Below, in pieces: positions 1-11,402 of a DNA stretch of 11,402 nt. A program made the translations under genes and the position numbers. Every line of letters starts with the position of its first letter. Position 1 is the first letter of the stretch. Location of the stretch: contig SKMY01000052.1 in the NCBI GenBank assembly GCA_007120815.1, positions 1-11,402 of the forward strand. Direction: 5' to 3'. Origin of the DNA: Syntrophomonadaceae bacterium. GTDB taxonomy: Bacteria > Bacillota_D > Dethiobacteria > DTU022 > UBA8154. The notes below the pieces were generated by a model, which was not told where the DNA came from, searched no databases, and was given only the letters and a program-made list of their open reading frames with translations.

Positions 1-46
1 GGAAGCAAGAGAACCGTCCCCGTGCTTCCTCCGTCCCCGTGCTTCC
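1..46. repeat. REP-like palindromic unit with a partial second copy
   Basis: Positions 1-29 form a palindromic unit with arms GGAAGCA (1-7) and TGCTTCC (23-29) around the core AGAACCGTCCCC (10-21). A partial duplicate follows at 30-46, carrying CCGTCCCC (31-38) and a second TGCTTCC arm. The same core recurs between engB and the glycosylase gene and between birA and bioY. The downstream flank GCTTCCCCGG (41-50) and TTTCCTGG (62-69) also recurs at 8875-8899, so the element extends beyond the palindrome. The window starts at the first base of the unit, so a left partner may lie outside. Confidence 0.85.
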
Positions 47-139
47 CCGGCTTGGTTCCGATTTCCTGGTTGTATTGCTACTTTATTACTTCTTTGCCCG
101 CGCTAAAAGTCCTGCCCGAGGGTTTTGATTTTCCGCTTG

Positions 140-168
140 TTGCCAGGGTTTAAAAGATATGATAAAAT
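140..168 (+). promoter_or_regulatory. Candidate vegetative (sigma-A) promoter upstream of the tig leader
   Basis: A -35 box TTGCCA (140-145) and a -10 box TAAAAT (163-168) are separated by exactly 17 bases, in an A/T-rich setting. Transcription would start near 175, only about 40 bases before the terminator at 216-239. It therefore drives either a short RNA of about 65 nt or a tig leader that is attenuated. The match is good for both boxes; activity is inferred. Confidence 0.5.
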
Positions 169-215
169 GAAAAAAAGCACGGGCCGAAGTGAAGTGAGCT
201 GGAAAATACGGAACT

Positions 216-239
216 CGCCTTAAAAGGCGGCATTTTTTT
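216..239 (+). terminator. Rho-independent terminator upstream of tig
   Basis: A short stem CGCCT/AGGCG (216-220 and 225-229, loop TAAA) is followed by GCA and seven T residues (233-239). This is a typical intrinsic terminator. It sits about 40 bases after the predicted start of the promoter at 140-168 and about 130 bases before tig. It could end a small RNA, act as an attenuator, or be the end of a transcript from outside the window. Confidence 0.7.
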
Positions 240-249
240 AGTTTCAGTA

Positions 250-278
250 TTGAAATAAAACAGGCGTTGTGTTAAAAA
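250..278 (+). promoter_or_regulatory. Possible tig-proximal promoter
   Basis: TTGAAA (250-255) and TAAAAA (273-278) are spaced by 17 bases, downstream of the terminator at 216-239. If used, it would give tig-clpP-clpX a promoter independent of the upstream leader. The -10 box is only a moderate match, so confidence is limited. A 6-bp hairpin AAGAAG/CTTCTT (316-332, loop GCCGG) lies in the resulting leader. Nothing else was recognised in the remaining 1-370 sequence; no CIRCE or CtsR box is visible. Confidence 0.3.
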
Positions 279-370
279 GGGATAAACGGTTTACATTCAA
301 AGGGGTGGCGGCAGTAAGAAGGCCGGCTTCTTAATCTGTTCTGAACCGAATAAGGAGGTAAGCATAATCA

Positions 371-1807
371 GTGTACAAGTGGGAGAAAATAGACAACAAT
401 AAAGTCAACCTGGAAGTCGAAGTGCCCAAAGAAGAAGTCAACGATGCCCTGGACAAAGCCTACCGTAAAGTGGTAAAAAAAGTTGACATTCCGGGATTTC
501 GTAAGGGCAAAGTACCTCGAAAGGTCCTTGAAAATCGTTTTGGACCGGAAATCCTGTATGAAGATGCCCTGGACATTTTGGTAGACCCGGCTTATGCGAA
601 GGCGGTTAGCGAGTGCGATTTTGAGCCCATCGACCAGCCCGAATTTGAACTGGTGCAGATAGAGCAGGACAAACCACTTATTTTTAAAGTAACCGTGGAT
701 GTCAAGCCCGAAGTGGAACCGGGCGAGTATAAGGGTGTTACCGTGGCACATGTATCCCAGACTATCACAGACGAAGACGTTGAGCGCTACCTGGAATCCT
801 TAAGGCAGCAGCATGCCCGACTGGTTACCCAGGAGGACGCCGAGGTGCAGGAAAAGGACCTGGCAGTGATTGACTTTAAGGGCATGATAGATGGGGAACC
901 CTTTGAGGGTGGTGAAGGGGAAAACTACTCCCTGGAGATCGGTTCGGGAACCTTTATCCCCGGATTTGAAGAGCAGTTGATCGGTGCACGCGTCGGTAAT
1001 GAAAAAGAGGTTAACGTCACCTTCCCAGAGGACTACCAGGTCGATGATCTGGCCAATAAAGAGGCAGTATTTTACGTAAAAGTGAATGAAATTAAACGCC
1101 CCGAACTTCCTGAACTAAGCGACGATTTTATTCAAGAGTTAACCGAAGAGTTTTCTACCCTGGAGGAATTTCGCGCCGATGTGGAAAACAAGTTAAAAGA
1201 AAACCAGGAGCGCAGGGATAAAGTTGAACTGGAGACCAAGGTTGTCGAAAAAGTGGCGGAAGAAAACCCGGTGGAAGTGCCCGAGGTTCTTGTCAAGCGG
1301 GAGATAGACAACATGCTCAGTGAATTTGAATATTACCTGCGCATGCAGGGGCTGTCCCTGGAGCAGTACGGGAACCTGATTGAAGGCGGAATAGAAAAGC
1401 TGAAGGAGGAACGCCGGGAGGAAGCTGAAAAGCGTGCCCGGGCCAACCTGGTGCTGGATGCCATTATTAAAAAAGAAGAAATCATCGCCAGCATGAAAGA
1501 GATCGATGCGAAAATTGAGGAATTCTCTCAAGGCCAGGACGTGAATCCCGAGGAAGTCAAAGAAAAGTTTGCCCGGCAAGGCCGCCTGGACATGATCGCC
1601 CATGAAATTCGCTATCGCAAGGCGATCGACCTGCTGGTGGAACATGCCAACATCGTCGAGAAAACGGAAGAAGCCCCTGAACAAGAAACCGCTGAAAAGC
1701 CTGAATCTCTGGAGGATACATCTATTGAAGTGGAAACACCTGATGAAGAAAAAACACCGGGTGATGAAGTAACGCCTGATCAAGCGGAAAAGACCATTGA
1801 AGAATAA
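371..1807 (+). CDS. tig: Trigger factor (ribosome-associated chaperone, peptidyl-prolyl isomerase)
   Basis: Trigger factor binds the ribosome exit tunnel and shields nascent chains; its FKBP-like domain isomerises prolyl bonds. The 478-residue product has the N-terminal ribosome-binding domain with the signature GFRKGKVPR (residues 42-50), an FKBP-type domain at about 160-245 ([16 protein letters not shown], then [15 protein letters not shown]), and the helical C-terminal chaperone domain to about residue 428. Residues 429-478 are an extra acidic, proline- and threonine-containing tail, so the protein is longer than the usual 430-450 residues. The start is GTG at 371: the family's N-terminus begins here, and AGGAGGT (353-359) lies 11 bases upstream, slightly far. 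It is the first gene of tig-clpP-clpX, with 65 bases to clpP. Confidence 0.96.
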
Positions 1808-1826
1808 TCATTGATCATTTAACGGC

Positions 1827-1847
1827 CCGGCTTCAAAAAGCAGCCGG
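1827..1847 (+). other. Hairpin in the tig-clpP spacer
   Basis: CCGGCT (1827-1832) and AGCCGG (1842-1847) form a perfect 6-bp stem with a 9-base loop. No T-run follows, so it does not look like a terminator. It may be a processing or stability element that adjusts clpP relative to tig; that role is inferred. Confidence 0.35.
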
Positions 1848-1872
1848 ACAGAATGAAAGGAGAGGAAAAACG

Positions 1873-2469
1873 ATGCAGTTAGTTCCAATGGTTGTTGAGC
1901 AAACCAGCCGTGGGGAAAGAGCTTACGATATTTACTCCCGGTTATTAAAAGACAGAATTATTTTTATCGGCACCCCCATCGATGATAACGTGGCCAACCT
2001 GGTCATTGCCCAGCTTCTTTTTCTGGAGTCGGAGGATCCTGATAAAGATATCAACATCTACATCAACTCCCCCGGAGGCTTGATTTATTCCGGGCTGGCC
2101 ATATACGATACCATGCAGTATATCAAGCCTGACGTTTCGACGATTTGCGTCGGTCTGGCTGCCAGCATGGGCGCGGTGCTTCTTGCCGCCGGCTCCAAGG
2201 GCAAAAGGTACGCCCTGCCTCACTCCCGCATGATGATGCATCAACCGGCGGGCGGTGCCCAGGGCCAGGCCGTAGATATTGAAATTCACGCCAAAGAAAT
2301 CCTATTGATCCGAGAGTCTCTCAACAAGATCCTGTCAGACCATACGGGTCAGCCTGTAGAGCGTATTGCGACAGATACTGACAGAGATTACTACATGTCC
2401 GCCACTGGGGCGGTGGAGTACGGGTTAATCGACTCCGTCCTTGAGAACCGGGAACAAATGACGAGGTGA
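1873..2469 (+). CDS. clpP: ATP-dependent Clp protease proteolytic subunit ClpP
   Basis: ClpP is the serine peptidase that forms a tetradecameric chamber and degrades proteins fed in by ClpX or other Clp ATPases. The 198-residue product has the usual length and the conserved N-terminus [20 protein letters not shown]. The catalytic triad is visible: Ser98 in GLAASMGA, His123 in MMHQP, and Asp172 in [10 protein letters not shown]. The glycine-rich SPGG motif is at about 66-69. Translation starts at ATG 1873 behind AAAGGAGAGG. It follows tig by 65 bases and is followed almost directly by clpX, so the protease and its unfoldase are made together. No CtsR operator was seen upstream. Confidence 0.97.
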
Positions 2470-2473
2470 AACC

Positions 2474-3736
2474 ATGTTTAAATTCAATGAAGAAAAAGGA
2501 CAATTAAAGTGTTCTTTTTGCGGTAAAACCCAGGAGCAGGTGCGCAAGCTGGTGGCCGGTCCTGGCGTGTATATTTGCGACGAGTGTATTGAACTTTGCA
2601 ACGAGATCATTGAAGAAGAGATCGGCGAAGATATGGACTTTAACATGGTTGACCTGCCCAAGCCCGTTGAAATCAACGAGGTGTTGAACAAGTACGTGAT
2701 CGGGCAGGAAAGTGCCAAGCGGGTCCTTTCTGTCGCTGTTTATAACCATTACAAGCGGGTGAACGCCGGTCAAAAAGTAGATGACGTGGAGCTGCAGAAA
2801 AGCAACATCATGCTTATCGGCCCCACGGGTGTAGGGAAGACCCTGCTGGCCCAAACCATGGCCCGTCTGCTCAACGTGCCCTTTGCCATCGCTGACGCCA
2901 CGTCCCTTACGGAAGCAGGCTACGTGGGTGAAGACGTGGAAAACATCCTGCTCAAGCTGATCCAGGCAGCCGACTATGACCTGGAAAAGGCGGAAAAAGG
3001 GATCGTTTACATTGATGAATTTGATAAAATTGCCCGTAAAAGCGAGAACCCTTCCATCACTCGGGATGTTTCCGGAGAAGGCGTGCAGCAGGCCCTGCTG
3101 AAAATTCTGGAGGGCACCGTGGCCAGTGTTCCGCCCCAGGGCGGTCGCAAGCACCCCCACCAGGAGTTTATGCAGATTGATACCACCGATATTCTGTTTA
3201 TCTGCGGCGGTGCTTTTGACGGCCTGGAAAAAATTATCCTCAAACGGATAGGGGCAGGTGGCATGGGTTTTGGTGCCGATGTCCGTCCCAAGCTGGACGT
3301 CAACATCGGCGATATACTCCGCCATGTGCGACCCGAAGATTTGATCAAGTACGGCCTGATCCCCGAGTGCGTGGGCCGGCTTCAGGTTATTGCCGTGCTG
3401 GATGCTCTGGACCGGGAGGCGCTGGTTCGGATTCTCACCGAACCGGTTAACGCCCTGGTCAAGCAGTATCAAAAAATGTTTGAACTCGATGGTGTCCAAC
3501 TGGAATTTAAAGACGGTGCCCTGGAAGCTATCGCCGATGAAGCCATCGGTCACAAAACGGGTGCCCGTGGTTTACGAGGTATTCTGGAAGGCATATTGCT
3601 CAATACTATGTATGAAATTCCTTCCAGGGATGATATAGAGAAGTGCACCATTACAACAGGTGTGGTCCGTAAAGAAGAAGAACCCAAGCTGTTAACCTCT
3701 TCGGGTAAAAAGAAAAAAGGGGCATCGGCTTCTTAG
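2474..3736 (+). CDS. clpX: ATP-dependent Clp protease ATP-binding subunit ClpX
   Basis: ClpX is the AAA+ unfoldase that recognises tagged substrates and threads them into ClpP. The 420-residue protein has an N-terminal zinc-binding domain with Cys13, Cys16, Cys35 and Cys38. It has Walker A GPTGVGKT (116-123), the pore loop GYVGED (149-154), Walker [10 protein letters not shown] (177-185), the RKH loop in GGRKHPHQ (223-230), and a sensor-2 region [10 protein letters not shown]. The ClpP-docking IGF loop reads MGF (264-266), a conservative change in the first residue. Its start codon lies four bases after the clpP stop, and the Shine-Dalgarno GAGGTG overlaps the end of clpP, indicating translational coupling. 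The last residues are a lysine-rich tail. A terminator follows at 3838. Confidence 0.97.
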
Positions 3737-3758
3737 GTAAAATACGTGCTTTCAGGAA

Positions 3759-3776
3759 GCCCGGTGCAGCCTGGGC
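3759..3776 (+). other. Hairpin downstream of clpX
   Basis: GCCCGG (3759-3764) and CTGGGC (3771-3776) can pair over six positions, one a G-U wobble, around the loop TGCAGC. It is followed by purine-rich sequence and not by T residues. It may protect the 3' end of the clpX transcript ahead of the terminator at 3838. The function is inferred. Confidence 0.3.
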
Positions 3777-3837
3777 AAAGATAAGCGGAGCCGATACCTT
3801 AGGAAGCGGAAACGCCATTTAAACTAAATACAAGCGG

Positions 3838-3865
3838 GCAGCCAAGACAGGCTGCTCTTTCTCTT
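3838..3865 (+). terminator. Rho-independent terminator of tig-clpP-clpX
   Basis: GCAGCC (3838-3843) and GGCTGC (3850-3855) form a perfect stem with loop AAGACA, followed by a T-rich tract (TCTTTCTCTTTCTTC). It lies about 100 bases after the clpX stop and separates the clpXP transcript from the lonB promoter region. Confidence 0.75.
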
Positions 3866-3921
3866 TCTTCTTCTATTTCATCCTGGCGACTTATTCTCTC
3901 ATCAATCTAAAGCAGGAATTT

Positions 3922-3951
3922 GGTTAATCTACACGAACTCCGGCAATACTA
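3922..3951 (+). promoter_or_regulatory. Candidate sigma-F-type (forespore) promoter for lonB
   Basis: The -10 candidate GGCAATACTA (3942-3951) fits the B. subtilis sigma-F consensus GGnrAnAnTw at every fixed position. It is preceded at a 15-base spacing by GGTTA (3922-3926), which matches four of five positions of GywTA. In B. subtilis lonB is known to be expressed in the forespore under sigma-F. Placement 50 bases before the lonB start and just after a terminator supports the call, but the motif is short and was found by eye. Confidence 0.4.
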
Positions 3952-3984
3952 AATTGAGATATTTTTAGACAGATAACAGGTTGT

Positions 3985-3990
3985 GGGAGG
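3985..3990 (+). promoter_or_regulatory. Ribosome binding site that fixes the lonB start
   Basis: GGGAGG lies 10 bases before GTG 4001. An upstream in-frame GTG at 3983 would put this site inside the coding region and has no Shine-Dalgarno of its own. The first ATG (4010) is 19 bases away. GTG 4001 is therefore preferred. Confidence 0.6.
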
Positions 3991-4000
3991 TTTTGCTATC

Positions 4001-5713
4001 GTGTATGGTATGCCTGGTGTGGTCGGTATCATCCAGCTGCTGTTTATTGTGATCATTGGGCTTTACGTCTGGAGCTTGATGAAGAATCAACGGGGCAGTA
4101 AGGTGACCATTGACCGGGAATCCACCAAGGAAATGGAAGAACTGTATCGCCTAAGAAAGCTGTCCCTGACAGAGCCCCTGTCAGAAAAAGTGCGTCCTTC
4201 TAATTTTAAAGAAATTATCGGCCAGATAGAAGGCCTTAAGGCCCTGAGAGCATCGTTATGCGGTCCCAATCCCCAGCACGTCCTGCTTTACGGCCCCCCC
4301 GGTGTGGGTAAAACCGCTGCTGCCCGCCTGGTTCTTGAAGAAGCGAAAAAAAACCAGCTGTCCCCCTTTTCCACCGAGGCCAAGTTTGTCGAAGTGGATG
4401 CCACGACCGTCCGATTTGACGAACGCGGGATTGCTGATCCCCTTATCGGAACGGTTCACGACCCCATATACCAGGGAGCGGGCCCCATGGGAGTCGCCGG
4501 TATTCCCCAACCCAAACCGGGTGCTGTAACCAAGGCCCACGGCGGTATTTTGTTTATAGACGAAATCGGGGAGCTTCATCCCATTCAGATCAACAAACTG
4601 TTAAAAGTGCTGGAAGACCGGAAAGTTTTTCTGGAAAGCGCGTATTACAACAGCGAAGATCGAAACATGCCCCGGCATATTCACGAGATTTTTCAAAACG
4701 GCCTTCCGGCAGATTTCCGCCTCATCGGAGCGACGACCCGCCAACCCGAGGAACTGCCTCCAGCGGTACGTTCCCGCTGCATGGAGATATTTTTCCGCAC
4801 CCTGGCGCCGGAAGAAATCAGCAAAATTGCCCACAACGCCGCCGAACGCATCGGGTATGCCTTGTCGAGAGACGCCTTGAAGGTTATCGAGGCATTTGCT
4901 ATGAACGGTCGCGAAGCCGTCAACATGGTCCAGACCGCCGCCGGGGTGGCCCAGAGTGAAGGAAGAAATAGCCTGGAAGCAGAGGACATGGAGTGGGTGG
5001 TCAACAACAGCCGGCTTTCCCCCAGGCCTGAAAAATGCATCCCTGAATGTCCCCAGGTGGGCGTGGTCAACGGTCTGGCGGTTTACGGCCCCAGTTTGGG
5101 GGCCATCCTGGAAATTGAGGCCAGCGTCTGTCAGGTGGAGAAAGGCGCCGGTCGCTTGAGTATTACCGGCGTTGTGGAAGAAGAAGAGATGGGGCGCATG
5201 GGTCGAACGCTGAAGCGTAAAGGGATGGCCCGAAGTTCGGTAGAAAATGTGCTAACCGTTTTGGGGTGGCACCTGGAATTAAGCATTCGCGATTATGATA
5301 TACACCTGAATTTCCCCGGTGGAGTCCCCGTTGACGGACCTTCGGCCGGGGTGGGCATTGCCACAGCAGTTTATTCAGCCATAACCGGCATCCCCGTCGA
5401 TAATACCGCCGCCATGACTGGCGAACTGTCCATCCGGGGACTGGTCTGTCCAGTAGGTGGCGTGATGACAAAAATTGAAGCAGCCCGGGAAGCGGGGGTA
5501 ACCCGTGTATTTATTCCCCGCAAGAACTGGCAGCACCTTTTCGACAAGGAAACACTCATCCAGGTGATCCCCGTTGACCATGTGCAGGAAGTGATAGAAC
5601 AGGTTCTTCAGGTGCAGATGCTCCCATCCAGCATGTCCAAGAAAACCGGGTCGGAAAGGGCTGCCAGGGAGTTTGTCTCCCTCAATGCAAAAAAAGAGGA
5701 TATTTGCGATTAG
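4001..5713 (+). CDS. lonB: Membrane-anchored ATP-dependent protease LonB
   Basis: LonB is the second Lon-type protease of endospore formers; in B. subtilis it acts in the forespore. The 570-residue product resembles it closely. It has an N-terminal hydrophobic segment (about residues 8-27) followed by KNQRG, which anchors it to the membrane. The AAA+ module has Walker A GPPGVGKT (98-105) and Walker B ILFIDEIGE (183-191). The C-terminal Lon protease domain carries the Ser448 (DGPSAG) and Lys491 (GGVMTK) dyad. It lacks the long N-terminal domain of LonA. The start is GTG 4001, chosen from GGGAGG at 3985-3990; GTG 3983 would add six residues. It is followed 79 bases later by lon. A sigma-F-like promoter lies upstream. 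Confidence 0.93.
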   Translation: MYGMPGVVGIIQLLFIVIIGLYVWSLMKNQRGSKVTIDRESTKEMEELYRLRKLSLTEPLSEKVRPSNFKEIIGQIEGLKALRASLCGPNPQHVLLYGPPGVGKTAAARLVLEEAKKNQLSPFSTEAKFVEVDATTVRFDERGIADPLIGTVHDPIYQGAGPMGVAGIPQPKPGAVTKAHGGILFIDEIGELHPIQINKLLKVLEDRKVFLESAYYNSEDRNMPRHIHEIFQNGLPADFRLIGATTRQPEELPPAVRSRCMEIFFRTLAPEEISKIAHNAAERIGYALSRDALKVIEAFAMNGREAVNMVQTAAGVAQSEGRNSLEAEDMEWVVNNSRLSPRPEKCIPECPQVGVVNGLAVYGPSLGAILEIEASVCQVEKGAGRLSITGVVEEEEMGRMGRTLKRKGMARSSVENVLTVLGWHLELSIRDYDIHLNFPGGVPVDGPSAGVGIATAVYSAITGIPVDNTAAMTGELSIRGLVCPVGGVMTKIEAAREAGVTRVFIPRKNWQHLFDKETLIQVIPVDHVQEVIEQVLQVQMLPSSMSKKTGSERAAREFVSLNAKKEDICD

Positions 5714-5732
5714 AAGAGAAATAACAGAAAAG

Positions 5733-5769
5733 ACCGGTAATGTATAAATGGTTGTGATTCCATTCCGGT
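5733..5769 (+). other. Inverted-repeat element in the lon leader
   Basis: AATGG (5747-5751) and CCATT (5760-5764) pair around an 8-base loop. CCGGT (5765-5769), directly adjacent, pairs with ACCGG (5733-5737) across a 9-base bulge TAATGTATA. Together they make a two-part hairpin ending seven bases before the AGGAGG of lon (5777-5782). It is not a CIRCE or CtsR box. It could be an operator or an mRNA structure affecting lon translation; this is inferred. Confidence 0.35.
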
Positions 5770-5792
5770 AGTGGAGAGGAGGAATAGATATA

Positions 5793-8183
5793 ATGAGCAA
5801 AATACTTGAACTGCCGTTACTTCCCCTTAGAGGGGTTATTGTTTTTCCAAACATGGTTATCCATCTGGATGTGGGCCGGGAGCGTTCGGTGAAGGCTCTG
5901 GATGAAGCCATGGTACACGACAATCAGATTTTTCTTGTGGCCCAAAAAGAGGCCAAAACAAACGAACCTGTGAATGATGACCTGTACAGCCTGGGGACGG
6001 TTGCCAACATTAAACAGACTTTAAAGCTTCCGGGTGGAACCCTACGGGTGTTGGTTGAGGGGCTGCACCGGGCCAGGATAGAAAAATTTCTACAGTCCGA
6101 ACCTTTTTTTAAGGCCAGGGTTGAAGAAATTCAAGAAGATGAAACCAAGACCAATGAAACTGAAGCCTTCATGCGCCACTTGTTGGATCAATTTGAACAA
6201 TACATTAAACTGAGCAAAAAGATCCCCCCCGAGGCATTCGCCACTGTTTCAGAAATTGATGAACCCGGAAGGTTGGCCGATGGGATGATTTCAAACCTGT
6301 CATTAAAACTGGAACAAAGACAGGAACTCCTGGAGGTTTTGCAGCCACAAGCGCGCCTGGAAAAACTGGCAGAAATCCTGAGCCGGGAGATGGAAATCCT
6401 TGAACTGGAAAAAAAGATCAACGTCAGAGTGCGCAAGCAGATGGAAAAAACCCAAAAAGAATATTACTTGCGGGAGCAGGTCAAGGCTATCCAAAAAGAA
6501 CTGGGTGAGCGGGACGAGCGTACTGCAGAAGCCGATGAATACCGTAAAAAAATCGCGGATGCCGGACTGCCCGAAGAAGCGGAAAAAAAAGCGCTTAACG
6601 AGCTGGACCGCCTGGAAAAAATGCCTCCGGCGGCGGCCGAGGCAGTTGTTGTCCGCAATTACCTGGACTGGATGCTGGAACTCCCCTGGTCTGTGATGAC
6701 AGAGGATCGCCTGGACCTGGACGTTGTGGAGCAAATACTGGAGGAGGACCATTACGGGCTGGAAAAAGTCAAGGAGCGAATCGTGGAGTACCTGTCCGTG
6801 CGTCGACTCACCCAAAAAATAAAAGGGCCCATTTTATGCCTGATCGGCCCTCCGGGTGTGGGGAAAACTTCCCTGGCGCGCTCCATTGCCCGCAGCCTGC
6901 AGAGGAAATTTGTGCGCATTTCCCTGGGGGGTGTACGGGACGAGGCGGAAATTCGCGGACACCGGCGCACCTATGTGGGTGCCCTTCCCGGTCGGATCAT
7001 CCAGGGGATCAAGCAGGCCAAGTCCAGGAACCCGGTTTTCTTGCTGGATGAGGTCGATAAAATGTCAACGGACTTTCGGGGAGACCCCTCGGCGGCCCTG
7101 CTGGAGGTCCTGGATCCCGAGCAGAACAACTCCTTTAGCGACCACTTCATTGAAGTGCCTTTTGATCTTTCCCAGGTGATGTTTATTACTACGGCAAACA
7201 GCCGGTTTAACATTCCCCAGGCTTTGCTGGATCGCATGGAAATCATATATATTGCCGGTTACACGGAAGAGGAAAAAGTTCGAATCGCCCAGAGGCACCT
7301 GATTAGAAAACAGCTGGATGAAAACGGGCTGACCCATGATAACCTCCGAATTTCCGAGGGAACCTTGAGGCACATTGTCCGGGAGTATACCCGGGAAGCC
7401 GGCGTGCGTAACCTGGAGCGGGAAATTGCCAACATTTGTCGAAAAACGGCGAAAGAGGTTGTCAAGAAAAAGGAATACCGCATCAGCGTAACCCGAAGCA
7501 ACCTGCATAAGTACCTGGGACCGCCCCGTTTCCGTTACGGGTTGGCCGAGAGAGAAAACGAGGTGGGTGTAGCGACCGGGGTGGCCTGGACCGAGACCGG
7601 CGGTGACCTGCTGGCCATCGAAGTGACCCTCATGAAAGGCAAAGGGAAACTCATCCTTACTGGAAAGCTGGGGGATATCATGCAGGAGTCTGCCCAGGCG
7701 GCATTGAGCTTTATCCGCTCCAGGGTAGAATTCTTAAATATTGACCCTGCTTTCCATGAAGAATACGATATCCACATCCATATTCCAGAAGGAGCTATCC
7801 CCAAAGACGGCCCTTCCGCCGGAATAACCATGGCAACAGCTATGATCTCCGCTCTCACCCAGGTGCCGGCCAATCGGCACGTGGCTATGACAGGGGAAAT
7901 TACACTCCGGGGCCGGGTTCTTGCCGTCGGGGGCGTAAAGGAAAAGGTGCTGGCTGCCCACCGTGCCGGGATAAAAACCATTATTTTACCGGCGGATAAC
8001 AAGAAAGACCTGACAGAAATCCCGGCCAATGTTCGCCGTAAGATCGATTTTGTACTGGTAGAGCACATTGACCAGGTGATAGAGAAAGCCCTGCTTAAAG
8101 AAGAAAAAAAGGAAGAAAAAAAGAAGGAAAATACCAATGAAGATCAAAAAAGCCGAGTTCCTGAGGTTGGCCACCCGGCCTGA
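5793..8183 (+). CDS. lon: ATP-dependent protease La (LonA)
   Basis: Lon is the soluble hexameric AAA+ protease that removes damaged and short-lived regulatory proteins. The 796-residue protein has the N-terminal LON substrate-binding domain (from LPLLPLRGVIVFPNMVIHLDVGR), a coiled-coil linker (about 190-270), Walker A GPPGVGKT (352-359), Walker B in VFLLDEVDK, and the protease domain with Ser675 (KDGPSAG) and Lys718 (GGVKEK, second Lys). AGGAGG (5777-5782) precedes ATG 5793. Residues 769-796 form a charged Lys/Glu tail beyond the normal end of the family, and the last 47 bases overlap engB. The tail is encoded by a polypurine tract with two in-frame A-AAA-AAG heptamers, so some product could end at residue 782 if ribosomes shift frame. 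Confidence 0.96.
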   Translation: MSKILELPLLPLRGVIVFPNMVIHLDVGRERSVKALDEAMVHDNQIFLVAQKEAKTNEPVNDDLYSLGTVANIKQTLKLPGGTLRVLVEGLHRARIEKFLQSEPFFKARVEEIQEDETKTNETEAFMRHLLDQFEQYIKLSKKIPPEAFATVSEIDEPGRLADGMISNLSLKLEQRQELLEVLQPQARLEKLAEILSREMEILELEKKINVRVRKQMEKTQKEYYLREQVKAIQKELGERDERTAEADEYRKKIADAGLPEEAEKKALNELDRLEKMPPAAAEAVVVRNYLDWMLELPWSVMTEDRLDLDVVEQILEEDHYGLEKVKERIVEYLSVRRLTQKIKGPILCLIGPPGVGKTSLARSIARSLQRKFVRISLGGVRDEAEIRGHRRTYVGALPGRIIQGIKQAKSRNPVFLLDEVDKMSTDFRGDPSAALLEVLDPEQNNSFSDHFIEVPFDLSQVMFITTANSRFNIPQALLDRMEIIYIAGYTEEEKVRIAQRHLIRKQLDENGLTHDNLRISEGTLRHIVREYTREAGVRNLEREIANICRKTAKEVVKKKEYRISVTRSNLHKYLGPPRFRYGLAERENEVGVATGVAWTETGGDLLAIEVTLMKGKGKLILTGKLGDIMQESAQAALSFIRSRVEFLNIDPAFHEEYDIHIHIPEGAIPKDGPSAGITMATAMISALTQVPANRHVAMTGEITLRGRVLAVGGVKEKVLAAHRAGIKTIILPADNKKDLTEIPANVRRKIDFVLVEHIDQVIEKALLKEEKKEEKKKENTNEDQKSRVPEVGHPA

Positions 8184-8721
8184 AGATTTTTTGCCCGGGC
8201 ATTACCCTGAAATTGCCCTGGCCGGCCGCTCCAATGTGGGGAAATCTTCCCTGCTGAACACCCTGGCCGGCATGCGAAACCTGGCCCGAACCAGCAACAC
8301 ACCAGGAAAAACCCGGGCCGTCCATTTTTACTTGTTCAACGGGGCCTTTTGCATGGTAGACCTGCCCGGGTATGGCTATGCCCGGATTTCCCGCTCTGAA
8401 CAGCAGAAATGGGGCCAATTAATAGAAGGTTTTCTGGTTAACCGAAAATCCATAAAAATGATCCTGCACCTGGTGGATATCCGTCATGCGCCCTCGGAAG
8501 AGGACAAGCAGATGTCTGCCTGGTTGAGCCATTTTGAATTTCCTGCCCTGGTGGTGGCCACCAAGCTGGACAAAATACCCCGGGGAAAACGGGAAGGTCA
8601 AAAGCTTCTCATCGCCCGGACCCTGGAAAAGGATCCATCGGACATCCTGCTCTTTTCCTCCAAAACCCGGGAAAACCGCGACAAGCTCTTAAAATTAATC
8701 CAGGACCAGTTATCTCAATAA
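8137..8721 (+). CDS. engB: Ribosome biogenesis GTP-binding protein EngB (YsxC/YihA)
   Basis: EngB is a TrmE-Era-EngA-like GTPase needed for assembly of the large ribosomal subunit. The 194-residue product has all G motifs: G1 GRSNVGKS (30-37), the switch-I threonine in TPGKTR (55-60), G3 DLPGYG (75-80), G4 TKLD (142-145), and G5 SSK (174-176). Its N-terminus MKIKKAEFL matches the family, so ATG 8137 is accepted although it lies 47 bases inside lon in another frame. AAGGA (8124-8128) in the lon tail serves as ribosome binding site, 8 bases before the start. The overlap suggests translational coupling to lon. lon-engB adjacency is common in Firmicutes. No typical terminator follows; a REPIN-like element begins 12 bases downstream. 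Confidence 0.96.
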   Translation: MKIKKAEFLRLATRPEDFLPGHYPEIALAGRSNVGKSSLLNTLAGMRNLARTSNTPGKTRAVHFYLFNGAFCMVDLPGYGYARISRSEQQKWGQLIEGFLVNRKSIKMILHLVDIRHAPSEEDKQMSAWLSHFEFPALVVATKLDKIPRGKREGQKLLIARTLEKDPSDILLFSSKTRENRDKLLKLIQDQLSQ

Positions 8722-8732
8722 CGATGGAGTCC

Positions 8733-8778
8733 GAGAAGCAAGGAGAAGGAGAAGCAAGGGGACGGTTCTCTTGCTTCC
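8733..8778 (+). repeat. REP-like unit, forward orientation (left half of a REPIN-like pair)
   Basis: The core GGGGACGGTTCT (8758-8769) is flanked by GAAGCAA (8751-8757) and TTGCTTC (8771-8777). The left arm is itself duplicated: GAGAAGCAAGG occurs at 8733-8743 and again at 8749-8759. This unit is the reverse complement of the one at 8834-8862 over nearly its whole length. It starts 12 bases after the engB stop. Confidence 0.9.
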
Positions 8779-8833
8779 TCGATAACATCGGTGTTTCTCC
8801 AATGCCTGGGGAAGGCGATGACATTTTGTGGAA

Positions 8834-8884
8834 GGAAGCAAGAGAACCGTCCCCTTGCTTCCCCCTTGCTTCCTGCTTCCCCGG
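8834..8884 (-). repeat. REP-like unit, reverse orientation (right half of a REPIN-like pair)
   Basis: Core AGAACCGTCCCC (8843-8854) with 9-bp arms GGAAGCAAG (8834-8842) and CTTGCTTCC (8854-8862). Two further copies of the right arm follow (8866-8873 and 8874-8880), then CCGG. It faces the unit at 8751-8778 across 55 bases, which contain an inner inverted repeat CATCG (8786-8790) / CGATG (8816-8820). Transcribed, the whole stretch could fold into one long nested hairpin. The flank GCTTCCCCGG is shared with the copy at the window start. Confidence 0.9.
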
Positions 8885-8957
8885 AGAACTGTTTCCTGGC
8901 TTCACCCGTTGCCTTAAGGAAGTTATCCGAATAGGAAGGAAAGTTGGATGCGTATTT

Positions 8958-9290
8958 ATGAGAATATGGGATATTCCACCGAAAAATCTGTGTGCTAAGC
9001 ATCTGCTTGGGGAACACCGGGAACTCCACGCCGTGTGGTCCATCATTACCAATGATAAAAAAGGGTATTCCTGCCACCCGGAAACCCAAAGGTGGCGCGG
9101 CAAGTTAAAAGCCCTCTACTGTCGGCATGAAGAGCTGGTTGAAGAGATGAAAACAAGAGGATATCGACACGCAAGCTCCCTGGATGCTTCCCTGGCTACG
9201 GGTTCCGGGGTGCAGGATGCGTATGTGGATACGCCGGCGGAGCAGTGTAACCTGTTAAAGCAAAAGGGCTGTCAGTGCAGCCTGGACTGA
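8958..9290 (+). CDS. Pyrimidine dimer DNA glycosylase, T4 endonuclease V-like
   Basis: The 110-residue product fits the pyrimidine dimer glycosylase family (T4 endonuclease V type), which removes UV-induced dimers and nicks the abasic site. KHLLGEHRELHAVWS (residues 14-28) aligns with the T4 segment QHLMAEYRELPRVF, including the catalytic Glu (Glu22 here, Glu23 in T4) and the preceding Arg. LKALYCRHEELVEEMKTRGY aligns with the T4 helix and KRGF turn. The T4 nucleophile is the amino group of Thr2; here residue 2 is Arg, so that chemistry cannot be assumed. The protein is shorter than T4 EndoV (138 residues). The reading frame stays open upstream to ATG 8724 only because it crosses the REP-like repeats, so ATG 8958 at the conserved MRIWDIP is used. 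A weak GGAAGGAAAG lies about 14 bases upstream. Confidence 0.72.
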   Translation: MRIWDIPPKNLCAKHLLGEHRELHAVWSIITNDKKGYSCHPETQRWRGKLKALYCRHEELVEEMKTRGYRHASSLDASLATGSGVQDAYVDTPAEQCNLLKQKGCQCSLD

Positions 9291-9479
9291 TACAACAGGG
9301 TATGGAAAATCCCGGCTCAAGCAAGATACAGCACTGCTTTCAAAAAGCGCCATCACCCCCTAACCGGGGAGCTGGTGACAGCATTTTAAAAGGTGTGCAT
9401 AGAGGTGCGCATGCTTTTTCGCTCACCGCACCCTTGGCAGCGCGGTGGGTCGGCATACGCCGACGATGCCTTTCCCATA
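9291..9479. other. Convergent spacer with hairpins
   Basis: This stretch separates the plus-strand glycosylase gene from the minus-strand bioY. It holds several weak inverted repeats: TCACC/GGTGA (9353-9357 and 9374-9378) enclosing a C/G-rich inner pair, and GCAT/ATGC (9397-9400 and 9411-9414) followed by five T residues on the plus strand. These could act as weak bidirectional terminators. No coding region or RNA gene is supported here. Confidence 0.4.
9449..9464 (-). terminator. Stable hairpin just downstream of bioY
   Basis: GTCGGC/GCCGAC is a perfect 6-bp stem with a 4-base loop, beginning 16 bases after the bioY stop on the minus strand. No T-run follows it, so it is a poor intrinsic terminator and may only protect the 3' end of the mRNA. 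Confidence 0.3.
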
Positions 9480-10019
9480 CTATGCTTGTAAAAGCCCGGC
9501 TTTAAGCAGCTGCTGGCGCACCGCCAGGCTGAGGCCGGCAGCAGCGAAAAGCTTTACCGCGTCCAGGGGAATAAATGGAACCACACCCATCACCAGGGCC
9601 TGGGGCAAGCCCAGCCCGGTAATGAAACTCAGCTGCAGGGTTCCTAACGTATAAATAGCGGCCAGGCAGAGCCCCATACCGCCTGCCATGGCTGCGTACG
9701 TGCTTTTTCTTTCCACGACTTTACCCAGCAGGTACACACCCAGCACAAAACCCCAAAGATAACCGCCGGTGGGTCCCAGCACAATGTGTATGCCTCCCTG
9801 GGCATGATGAAACACGGGCATGCCTACCGCACCCATAAGGATATACACCAGCACGGCCACCGCTCCGCGGCGGCTACCCAAAATTCCCCCCACCAGAAAC
9901 ACGCCGAAAGTCTGCCCCGTAATGGGTACCGGGCTAAAGGGAATGGGAATGGAAACCTGGGCCATGATGGCCATTAAGGCGGCAAACAAGCCGCATAGGA
10001 TGTAGTGTTTCGTCTGCAT
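9480..10019 (-). CDS. bioY: Biotin transporter BioY (ECF S component)
   Basis: BioY is the substrate-binding membrane subunit of the energy-coupling factor biotin transporter. The 179-residue product is almost entirely hydrophobic, with about six membrane segments, and shows family motifs: IPIPFSPVPITGQTF (24-38), GPTGGYLWGF (82-91) and PFIPLDAVKL (148-157). The start is ATG at 10019: AGGAGG (10026-10031) lies six bases upstream, and an upstream in-frame start at 10073 would encode translated REP repeat. No bioM/bioN (EcfA/EcfT) genes are in the window, so BioY probably uses a shared ECF module encoded elsewhere. It lies downstream of birA on the same strand, 245 bases away, with a REPIN-like element between. 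No BirA operator of the usual TTGTTAACC type was seen. Confidence 0.94.
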   Translation of the reverse strand: MQTKHYILCGLFAALMAIMAQVSIPIPFSPVPITGQTFGVFLVGGILGSRRGAVAVLVYILMGAVGMPVFHHAQGGIHIVLGPTGGYLWGFVLGVYLLGKVVERKSTYAAMAGGMGLCLAAIYTLGTLQLSFITGLGLPQALVMGVVPFIPLDAVKLFAAAGLSLAVRQQLLKAGLLQA

Positions 10020-10034
10020 TACAAACCTCCTAAT

Positions 10035-10093
10035 GATAAACCACGGGGACGGTTCTTGTGGATCGATAACCACGGGGACGGTTCTTGTGGATC
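10035..10093 (+). repeat. Tandem pair of REP-like units, forward orientation
   Basis: Two direct copies of a 29-30-base unit, each beginning GATAA and ending GTGGATC. The palindromic parts are at 10041-10061 and 10070-10090: arms CCAC and GTGG around the core GGGGACGGTTCTT. The arms differ completely from the GAAGCAAG arms of the copies near engB while the core is identical. The pair faces an inverted pair at 10183-10248. It occupies the bioY leader, starting four bases upstream of its Shine-Dalgarno. Confidence 0.92.
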
Positions 10094-10097
10094 AATA

Positions 10098-10107
10098 ACT
10101 CATGAGT
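10098..10107. promoter_or_regulatory. Perfect palindrome in the bioY upstream region
   Basis: ACTCATGAGT is a perfect 10-bp palindrome lying in the unique centre of the REPIN-like element, upstream of bioY. ACTCAT occurs again at about 10129. It does not match the known BirA box. It may be a regulator site or simply part of the mobile element's loop. Confidence 0.25.
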
Positions 10108-10182
10108 AGCTATCACTGACTCATTAAATGCTGTTATGCCAATGAACAAAAACCTAATCCTTTACAGTGTTTCAGCAAACGG

Positions 10183-10248
10183 TTCTATTATGATCCACAA
10201 GAACCGTCCCCGTGGCTTCTATTATAACCACAAGAACCGTCCCCGTGG
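10183..10248 (-). repeat. Tandem pair of REP-like units, reverse orientation
   Basis: Two direct copies of a 32-33-base unit beginning TTCTATTAT (10183-10215 and 10217-10248). Each ends in the palindrome CCAC + AAGAACCGTCCCC + GTGG (10195-10215 and 10228-10248). They are the inverse of the two units at 10041-10090. A core fragment ACGGTTCT (10179-10186) in the forward direction abuts the first copy. The pair starts 16 bases after the birA stop (minus strand). Confidence 0.92.
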
Positions 10249-10264
10249 TTTAAATGTTCCGGGT

Positions 10265-11248
10265 CTATTTTTTTAATGTGACTTCTCCGGCGTGAAAATG
10301 CTTTCGTGTCCCGTCGTCCCCTTGGACGACCAGGGCTCCATCATCCTGAATGTCAACGGCTGTTCCTGAAAAATTTCCGGCAGGTAGGGACACGCTGACT
10401 CGCCGTTCCAGGGTGATGCTGTTTTTTTTCCAGGCCTGGATAATTGGCCCGGTTCCCTGGGTACGGATGGTTGTGTAAAGATGATCCAATTCATTGATTA
10501 CCGAAGCGGTTAGTGCTAAGCGGTCCGCTTTTTTACCGCTTTCCAGGTACAGGGAAGTGGCTGTTGATGCCAGTTCCGGGGGAAAATCTTCCGGTGCCTG
10601 GTTGGCGTTTAAACCGATGCCAATAACCAGGTAGTGCAGCCGGTCGGCTTCCGCCTTCAATTCGGTAAGAATGCCGCAGATTTTTCGCTCCCTGATCAGG
10701 ATATCGTTTGGCCACTTGATGCCTGCTTTTAGGTAGGCATAAGGACCATTGAGGGCACGGGTAACGGCTACAGCAGCAACAAGGGTAAACCCAGGCGTTT
10801 CCTGGGGAAACACAGCAGGCTTGAGCAAAACAGACAGCCATATACCCTTACCCAAGGGAGAGGACCAGCTTCGTCCAAGCCTGCCTTTTCCGCGGGTTTG
10901 CTCTTCGGCCAAAACAACGGTTCCTTCCGGGGCTCCTTCTTCCGCCATAGTTTTCAAGCGTTCATTGGTTGACTCCACGGAAGGGAAATAGTGGATCTTT
11001 ACTGAAGGCACCCCAATGATTTCGCCGTCCAGCCTTTCCACCAGCTCGGCGGGGTAAAGCCGGTCTGGAACCTGGAGGAGGCGATATCCCAGGCGGGGGC
11101 TTCCTTCGATGCGATACCCCTCAGCCTGAAGGCCGTTGATGGCCTTCCAGACAGCTGTCCGGCTGACCGACAGCTCCCCAGCCATGATTTCTCCTGATAC
11201 ATAACCGGGCTTGTGTTTTTTTAACAGTTCCAAGACCTTGTTTCGCAT
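10265..11248 (-). CDS. birA: Bifunctional biotin operon repressor / biotin-[acetyl-CoA-carboxylase] ligase BirA
   Basis: BirA activates biotin to biotinyl-5'-AMP and transfers it to biotin-dependent carboxylases; forms with an N-terminal DNA-binding domain also repress biotin genes. The 327-residue product has a winged helix-turn-helix at about 1-60 (SGEIMAGELSVSRTAVWKAI, then GYRIEGSPRLGYRL), the catalytic domain with the adenylate-binding GKGRLGR (120-126), KWPND (178-182) and the conserved Lys189 in RKICGILTEL, and a C-terminal SH3-like domain at about 275-327. All parts are intact, so both functions are expected. AAGGAG (11254-11259) lies five bases before ATG 11248. bioY lies downstream on the same strand, fitting co-regulation by biotin, though no operator was recognised. 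Confidence 0.95.
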   Translation of the reverse strand: MRNKVLELLKKHKPGYVSGEIMAGELSVSRTAVWKAINGLQAEGYRIEGSPRLGYRLLQVPDRLYPAELVERLDGEIIGVPSVKIHYFPSVESTNERLKTMAEEGAPEGTVVLAEEQTRGKGRLGRSWSSPLGKGIWLSVLLKPAVFPQETPGFTLVAAVAVTRALNGPYAYLKAGIKWPNDILIRERKICGILTELKAEADRLHYLVIGIGLNANQAPEDFPPELASTATSLYLESGKKADRLALTASVINELDHLYTTIRTQGTGPIIQAWKKNSITLERRVSVSLPAGNFSGTAVDIQDDGALVVQGDDGTRKHFHAGEVTLKK

Positions 11249-11402
11249 TATTTCTCCTTTGCAAAATGGGGATGAACCGGGGTTTTTAATCGCTTCCCAC
11301 CCGTTGAGGAGGTCTGCCTTCTTTATGGCGGCGATTTTGTCAAGCGCTACTTTCTATAAGTTAAAAGCTTAAGAGAAAGGCATCAGCCAGCCTGAAGAGC
11401 AA
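11249..11402. other. birA upstream region
   Basis: The leader of birA and the window end. A TTGACA occurs on the minus strand about 95 bases upstream of birA, but no good -10 box follows at 16-18 bases. No gene or RNA could be supported. Confidence 0.4.

Follow-up and report, generated by a model that had tools for sequence, protein, structure and literature searches.

What are the short palindromic repeats with one fixed core and exchangeable arms that recur in a contig of a Syntrophomonadaceae bacterium (SKMY01000052.1, positions 1 to 11,402; this 11,402-nt stretch is hereafter called the window), and what has moved them? The 12-bp core, GGGGACGGTTCT, is present in seven exact copies on the two strands of the whole window, where 0.00 are expected and where none of 200 dinucleotide shuffles reached seven; with up to two mismatches allowed there are nine copies against 1.27 expected. 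Three copies have arms of type A (GAAGCA/TGCTTC) and four have arms of type B (CCAC/GTGG). This agrees with an earlier note on this DNA, which had described seven cores with two arm types; six of them fall within the span that it gave, 8733-10248, and one lies at the left edge of the window. Our comparisons of sequences indicate that the repeats are very probably derived from terminal inverted repeats (TIRs) and form REPIN-like pairs moved by Y1 transposases of the TIRYT/subclass 2.1 type with bipartite recognition, and the short intergenic repeats look like leftovers of a transposon family. We also favor, with less assurance, the broader proposal of an HUH lineage with a modular address, in which a helix-turn-helix (HTH) reads the arm half-sites base by base and the HUH domain reads the core, distinct families, each served by an enzyme of its own, share one core within a genome, and a given pairing of arm and helix arose on more than one catalytic background.

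We searched 15 related genomes, found via LonB (best matches 74-79% identical) and consisting mostly of metagenome-assembled genomes of Bacillota, with one Dethiobacter sp. The core was present in 13 of the 15, with 305 copies as against 6 of the reversed pattern, so that the genome-wide search recovered a family in which the core is fixed and the arms match, as the earlier note had supposed. The matched arms were AAGACA and GAAGCA in G005, ATGTCA and GCGACA in G007, TGGACA, GCGACA, AACCA and ATATCA in G342, ATTCAAGT in G013 and AACCA in G006, and elements with type B-like arms were dispersed in both G342 and G006. For comparison with resident genes we used the 47 exact copies among 73 in G005, where one mismatch had been allowed, 35 of 52 copies in G007 and 62 copies in G342; those listed from genomes other than G005 were only the copies without a G at either end of a 36-base stretch. 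We noted in G005 more one-mismatch families on the same core half, ...GTGAAGCTTGGGGACGGTTCGAGCGTCAC... and ...CACGGGGACGGTTCCATCGTCTTCCC..., with many near-identical copies.

Y1_Tnp genes were identified in eight of the 15 related genomes. In a sample of the phylum, proteins matching an alignment of ten seed proteins (A1) were found in 122 of 398 genomes, and genes were drawn mainly from the better-scoring part among the matches listed: 139 loci (L111-L249) gave 128 with an A1-matching protein and 126 non-redundant genes. A matched inverted pair of GGGAC-core elements lies close by 88 of these 126, which is a share of A1-like genes and not of all Y1 genes. Replacing the downstream flank by that of another locus gave 21.4 (maximum 28), a control value as high as this because the core is common to families, and pairs in direct and divergent orientation numbered 8 and 6. 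With the stricter cut that the arms must agree we counted 50 genes, versus 0.5 when flanks were dealt to other loci. At the genes the elements read arm-CA-x-GGGGACGGTTCT-x-TG-arm', or have a variant of this core, with arms that vary between genes. Type A arms flank L135, L189, L201, L204, L160 and others, and type B-like arms flank L148, L153, L179 and L170, as well as L252 and L276; the RAYT-related Y1 genes that the earlier note proposed to look for beside each arm type are thus present in relatives.

The transposases are ∼255 amino acids long and have the motifs NHxH and Y---NP (alignments A1 and A2). Y1_Tnp (PF01797) was matched by all eight proteins scanned, and REP_Tyr_transpos (NF047646) scored above its cut-off in two of four proteins and below it in the other two. 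An AlphaFold model of L135 (65 sequences, mean predicted local distance difference test score 92.4) has end helices at 222-233, 240-247 and 251-256, which are predicted to form an HTH arrangement. Other Y1 genes of the same genomes (L126, L131, L138 and L129) were observed with different flanking repeats (e.g. GGTGTCAGGTCTTGAAATTTGAATTTA and GGGGTCAGGCTTGCATTATTGCATTT), and L131 has a weak DnaA-like C-terminal match under the Pfam cut-off.

Copies dispersed within a genome tend to carry the arms of the transposases resident there. Using random sets of non-resident genes as control, and with the arm of L137 added by hand, we found the arm triplet of a resident gene in 29 of 34 copies in G007 (p=0.0135) and in 42 of 58 in G342 (p=0.027); the three genomes together, G005 included, gave 111 of 137. 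Neighboring copies in opposite orientation, at most 350 bp apart, were in the order + then - in 39 of 39 cases (G342, 11; G007, 4; G004, 22; the window, 2), and 48 more neighbors in G342, G007 and G004 had the same orientation. Since these dispersed pairs are oriented like the two repeats around a gene, they look like gene-less versions of the transposon. Inverted, dispersed and intergenic pairs, as expected of REPINs, were thereby found, the intergenic position being established in the window. We observed 103 copies in G004, where 18 of the 22 pairs are exactly 39 bp apart (L004, 9825-9950); copies stand at both ends of the L004 contig and may break assembly.

Empty orthologous sites, as expected of a mobile element, were also found, in relatives too distant for base-exact junctions. 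The birA-bioY gap, 245 bp long in the window, measures ∼157, 26, 77 and 56 bp in L003, L005, L006 and L008, the four relatives with both genes in the locus, and is coreless in all four; neither is there a core directly 3' of ysxC in these loci. The window copies at these two sites are therefore lineage-specific. In L008 two cores, with arms of other types, lie a short way 3' of bioY, and ∼1.1 kb upstream of tig in L005 there is one type A copy.

The arms and the core were found to follow different parts of the transposase. In partial Mantel tests (500 permutations) on 80 of the 88 genes, those with >90% identity or without a CA-anchored arm having been removed, the distance between HTH domains was related to that between arms given HUH (r=0.243, p=0.002), and the HUH distance given HTH was not (r=0.006, p=0.42). 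For the 3' core half, the HUH relation given HTH was r=0.141 (p=0.016) and the HTH relation given HUH was r=-0.139. We then tabulated residues against bases for 120 genes remaining after a 90% filter, with residues in L135 numbering. The best columns for the arms were 251, 240, 136, 255 and 252, and those for the core were 100, 81, 80, 77, 84 and 96, with eight of the ten best core columns within residues 71-102. At arm base -4, K251 goes with G (30/31), V251 with A (10/10), P251 with A (8/8) and F251 with C (6/7); at base -3, Q240 goes with G (15/17) and I240 or L240 with A or T (67/70). Four residue-base links each had p=0.0005, both in free permutation and in permutation within core class, and permutation within HUH clusters also gave p=0.0005. 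An SRG-type helix accompanies the AACCA arms of L148, L153, L179 and L170, and SRQ those of L276. GAAGCA arms occur with a GTTCT core and SQN/SPN helices in L261 and L264, and with an AGGTA core and an SPN helix in L199, so that one arm and similar helix residues are found together in another core class; the catalytic domains of L261 and L213 share 71% identity, and the arms of L213, which also has a GTTCT core, are different.

By alignment to E. coli TnpA-REP (4er8), V81 is opposite K82, and F98/Q99 are opposite W94/Q95. K82 of TnpA-REP contacts the bulge and W94/Q95 lie in the segment contacting GTAG (PMC8266576, PMC6006769), and the core-tracking residues (mainly 77-85, 96 and 100) would, as aligned, lie near those with which TnpA-REP contacts repetitive extragenic palindromic (REP) DNA.

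We also predicted arms from the protein. Nearest-neighbor transfer within the training set, neighbors of at least 55% HUH identity being excluded, recovered few exact 4-base arms (HUH 2/80, HTH 3/80, ten recognition-helix residues 5/80, whole protein 0/80), with mean mismatches of 2.36 for HUH, 1.89 for HTH, 1.82 for the helix and 2.20 for the whole protein against a background of 2.38. A held-out set of 61 new non-redundant genes, taken from a second draw and from matches left over before, some of them in training-set genomes, contained 47 core pairs and 42 usable arms, 14 genes being dropped for lack of a core pair and 5 for lack of a CA-anchored arm. With no identity limit, the arm triplet was predicted exactly in 25 of the 42 by the recognition helix and in 20 by HUH (background 7.1%). 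With neighbors restricted to <70% HUH identity, the counts were 21 for the helix, 17 for the whole HTH and 11 for HUH (background 6.4%), and with <50% they were 11, 10 and 3 (background 5.3%). Among the single columns scanned, base -3 was best predicted by residue 240 (31/42 vs 25 by majority guess) and base -4 by residue 251 (32/42 vs 23); for base -5, residue 252 was not the best column (23 vs 17).

On the reading we prefer, the transposon would consist of a gene for a TIRYT-type Y1/HUH enzyme of ∼255 amino acids, with an N-terminal HUH and a C-terminal HTH domain, between terminal inverted repeats. Judging from the covariation, the recognition helix (251, 252 and 255), together with residue 240, where the helix before it begins, would read the bases that adjoin CA/TG on the outer side in each arm, and the HUH helix 72-90 with the stretch 96-100 would read the core. 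The enzyme would presumably mobilize the dispersed pairs in trans via single-stranded DNA. That arms change as matched pairs, which the earlier note had remarked on, is then most simply explained by the same domain reading both halves. The note had also taken the core to be the part recognized; the core is indeed the element in common, with variants that follow the catalytic domain, but the arms appear to be read as well. If the HTH reads the arms while HUH reads the core, a few residues could retarget a whole repeat family, and such two-part recognition suggests how several repeat families with one core coexist in a genome. The matched data, ∼120 natural enzyme-element pairs, also provide a candidate residue-to-base code. 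The two arm types of the window would then imply two transposases in its genome: an arm A enzyme with Q240 and an ISPN-like helix is well supported, and the arm B enzyme probably has T240 and an ISRG-like helix.

The earlier note had held that the arms need only to pair. In a REP/IS608-like form of this model, a single-strand hairpin would be recognized by its shape and the core in its loop would be the sole sequence signal. We consider this improbable. The arms are self-complementary: of 270 elements 228 were framed, and in 112 of these all of the outer 4 bp pair, compared with a fraction of 0.034 when right arms were dealt to other elements. All three type A copies fold well as single-stranded DNA relative to shuffles (z -3.2 to -5.7, the copy at 1-30 being folded on the strand opposite the core). 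HUH relatives act on single-stranded DNA hairpins (PMC8266576), and the core-tracking residues map on the REP-contacting helix, next to the guide segment of TnpA-REP. However, if any pair sufficed there would be no need for HTH residues to predict arm bases, as they do, and the arms track the recognition helix also within one core class. Mismatched arm pairs in 391 elements showed no strand-specific excess, with 43 top-strand G.T as against 57 A.C; only one of the four type B copies folds better than shuffles (z -2.6), the other three giving z -0.6 to -0.9; and arm spacing is equal in both repeats at 62 of the 65 genes where both were measurable. In 242 of the 391 elements the innermost pairs are 15 apart, which places two 6-bp half-sites 21 bp apart center to center, or two helical turns, a distance that would suit a dimer on double-stranded DNA; it is also possible that the HTH binds the stem of a single-strand hairpin.

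Several observations count against direct reading of the arms and core, or against its reach. The transposase evidence comes from the genomes of relatives and not from that of the window, and the 126 genes were picked by similarity to ten seeds, the majority of which were selected with an eye to flanks of this kind; 38 of the 126 have no matched core pair. None of the eight transposases scanned passed a Pfam HTH cut-off. Arm spacing varies between families (15, 17 and 13), and in G005 the resident arm triplets (40 of 45 copies) were not significant on their own (p=0.073). The Mantel r is modest. R251 is mixed at base -4 (G 33, A 10, T 3, C 2), and T240 is loose at base -3 (C 5, A 3, G 1; C in 5/9). 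AACCA arms also occur with other helices, in L196, L252 (NRN), L286 and L309, and since they stand on several helices the prediction for arm B is weaker than that for arm A. Columns 136, 93 and 54 of HUH rank high for arm bases too; permutation within HUH clusters is weak because 81 of the 120 genes fall in one cluster; and in the seven held-out proteins with <60% HUH identity to the training set no clear gain came from the single-residue rules (3 vs 4, 5 vs 5 and 2 vs 1).

The last three of these points, with the shared ancestry of proteins and arms, are what would be expected if arms and HTH were simply co-inherited without physical reading. Such phylogenetic hitch-hiking is, in our estimate, as unlikely as recognition by pairing alone. 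It would not leave the HUH distance without arm variation to explain once HTH is accounted for, the residue-arm links persist within core class, L199, L261 and L264 combine the same arm and a similar helix with other core and HUH backgrounds, and the strongest columns lie at the starts of the HTH helices. It is less probable still that the repeats are operators or terminators of their neighbors, e.g. BirA sites between birA and bioY: that gap does hold four copies and BirA has an HTH_11 domain, but the best match in the gap to BirA operator forms has 5/18 mismatches and does not stand out from the rest of the window, the relatives' gaps are shorter and coreless, and type B-like elements are dispersed in other genomes.

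The positions of the copies in the window are collected in the table. Inverted sets in the order + then - take in six of the seven (8758+/8843- and 10045+,10074+/10200-,10233-). Past the first 4 bp, type B arms are fully paired in one of four copies (AACCAC/GTGGTT, 10226-10250).

Elements of the repeat family in the window
Element	Positions	Core	Strand	Context
Type A (GGAAGCA...TGCTTCC)	1..29	10-21	-	∼340 bp upstream of tig, left window edge
Type A	8751..8778	8758-8769	+	left half of an inverted + then - pair
Type A	8834..8862	8843-8854	-	right half of the pair; arm fragments follow, to 8880
Type B (AACCAC...GTGG)	10039..10061	10045-10056	+	just upstream of bioY
Type B	10068..10090	10074-10085	+	tandem copy, 29 bp on
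Type B (CCAC/GTGG only)	10195..10215	10200-10211	-	inverted partner
Type B, 6-bp arms (AACCAC/GTGGTT)	10226..10250	10233-10244	-	just downstream of birA

The genes around the copies, by Pfam, are tig, clpP, clpX, lonB, lonA, ysxC, a Pyr_excise gene, bioY and birA, where names that go past the Pfam matches are presumed. All copies are intergenic, as had been claimed: open reading frames running into them are extensions of the Pyr_excise gene (domain from ∼8958) and bioY (ATG at 10019). The Pfam scan covered nine of the window's 52 mechanical open reading frames, and none of these nine proteins is a transposase, in line with the earlier note. A search of the window against Rfam gave no match. 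The type B copies, nested ++ then --, occupy with their four units much of the birA-bioY gap (10020-10264). The outermost copy, TTATAACCA-N16-GGTTTAAAT, was tried as a BirA operator and rejected, being only loosely similar at 5/18 mismatches, the background level. Fragments of type A arms and core (e.g. CCGTCCCCGTGCTTCC and TGCTTCC) adjoin full copies at 22-48, 8736-8757 and 8863-8880, as if units had locally decayed or been added.

Among known systems, TnpA of IS200/IS605 (IS608) shares the HUH/Y1 catalytic fold (PF01797) with the enzymes studied here, which differ in having flanking inverted repeats, whose core is conserved and whose arms vary, and an extra C-terminal domain. Table 1 of PMC6006769 also served for this comparison. 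With REPINs and GTAG REPs moved by RAYTs, the family has in common short intergenic palindromes, inverted pairs, an HUH transposase and a repeat family of its own for each transposase (PMC8266576, PMC6006769). The kinship to REP/RAYT systems suggested in the earlier note is thus right in outline, but the enzymes appear to be of the TIRYT/subclass 2.1 kind rather than the GTAG-REP kind. The unpaired GT[AG]G foot of GTAG REPs is absent from type A, and the GTGG of type B is a paired arm; unlike RAYT/TnpA-REP, the transposases have a C-terminal HTH, and specificity appears to sit in the arms. They resemble TnpA-Y1 subclass 2.1 (Quentin et al. 2018; Bertels group 1 by Table 1 of PMC6006769) in their length of ∼240-260 amino acids, NHxH and Y---NP motifs and C-terminal HTH, the features on which we assign them. 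This is the second largest Y1 subclass in PMC6006769, where its choice of DNA is left open; here the covariation points to direct reading of the arms. A literature search of titles and abstract openings, with few subscription journals, found no paper linking arms to the HTH.

In TIRtrons, inverted repeats flank the gene for a Y1 tyrosine transposase, the TIRYT (PMC3733652, Di Nocera et al. 2013). Passages of that paper on the repeats report no tie of arms to transposase residues such as that found here, and its main text does not contain 'Firmicutes' or 'Clostrid-'. The motif GGGGWSAS, shared by some TIRs only, is matched at 7/8 positions by the core here, GGGGACGG, and eight of the 88 genes have related cores reading GGGACAGG. 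In some species TIRs are also dispersed and often dimeric, and some are self-complementary (PMC3733652). In the relatives, too, inverted repeats flank the Y1 gene (in the 88 of 126 cases above), with arms like both types of the window.
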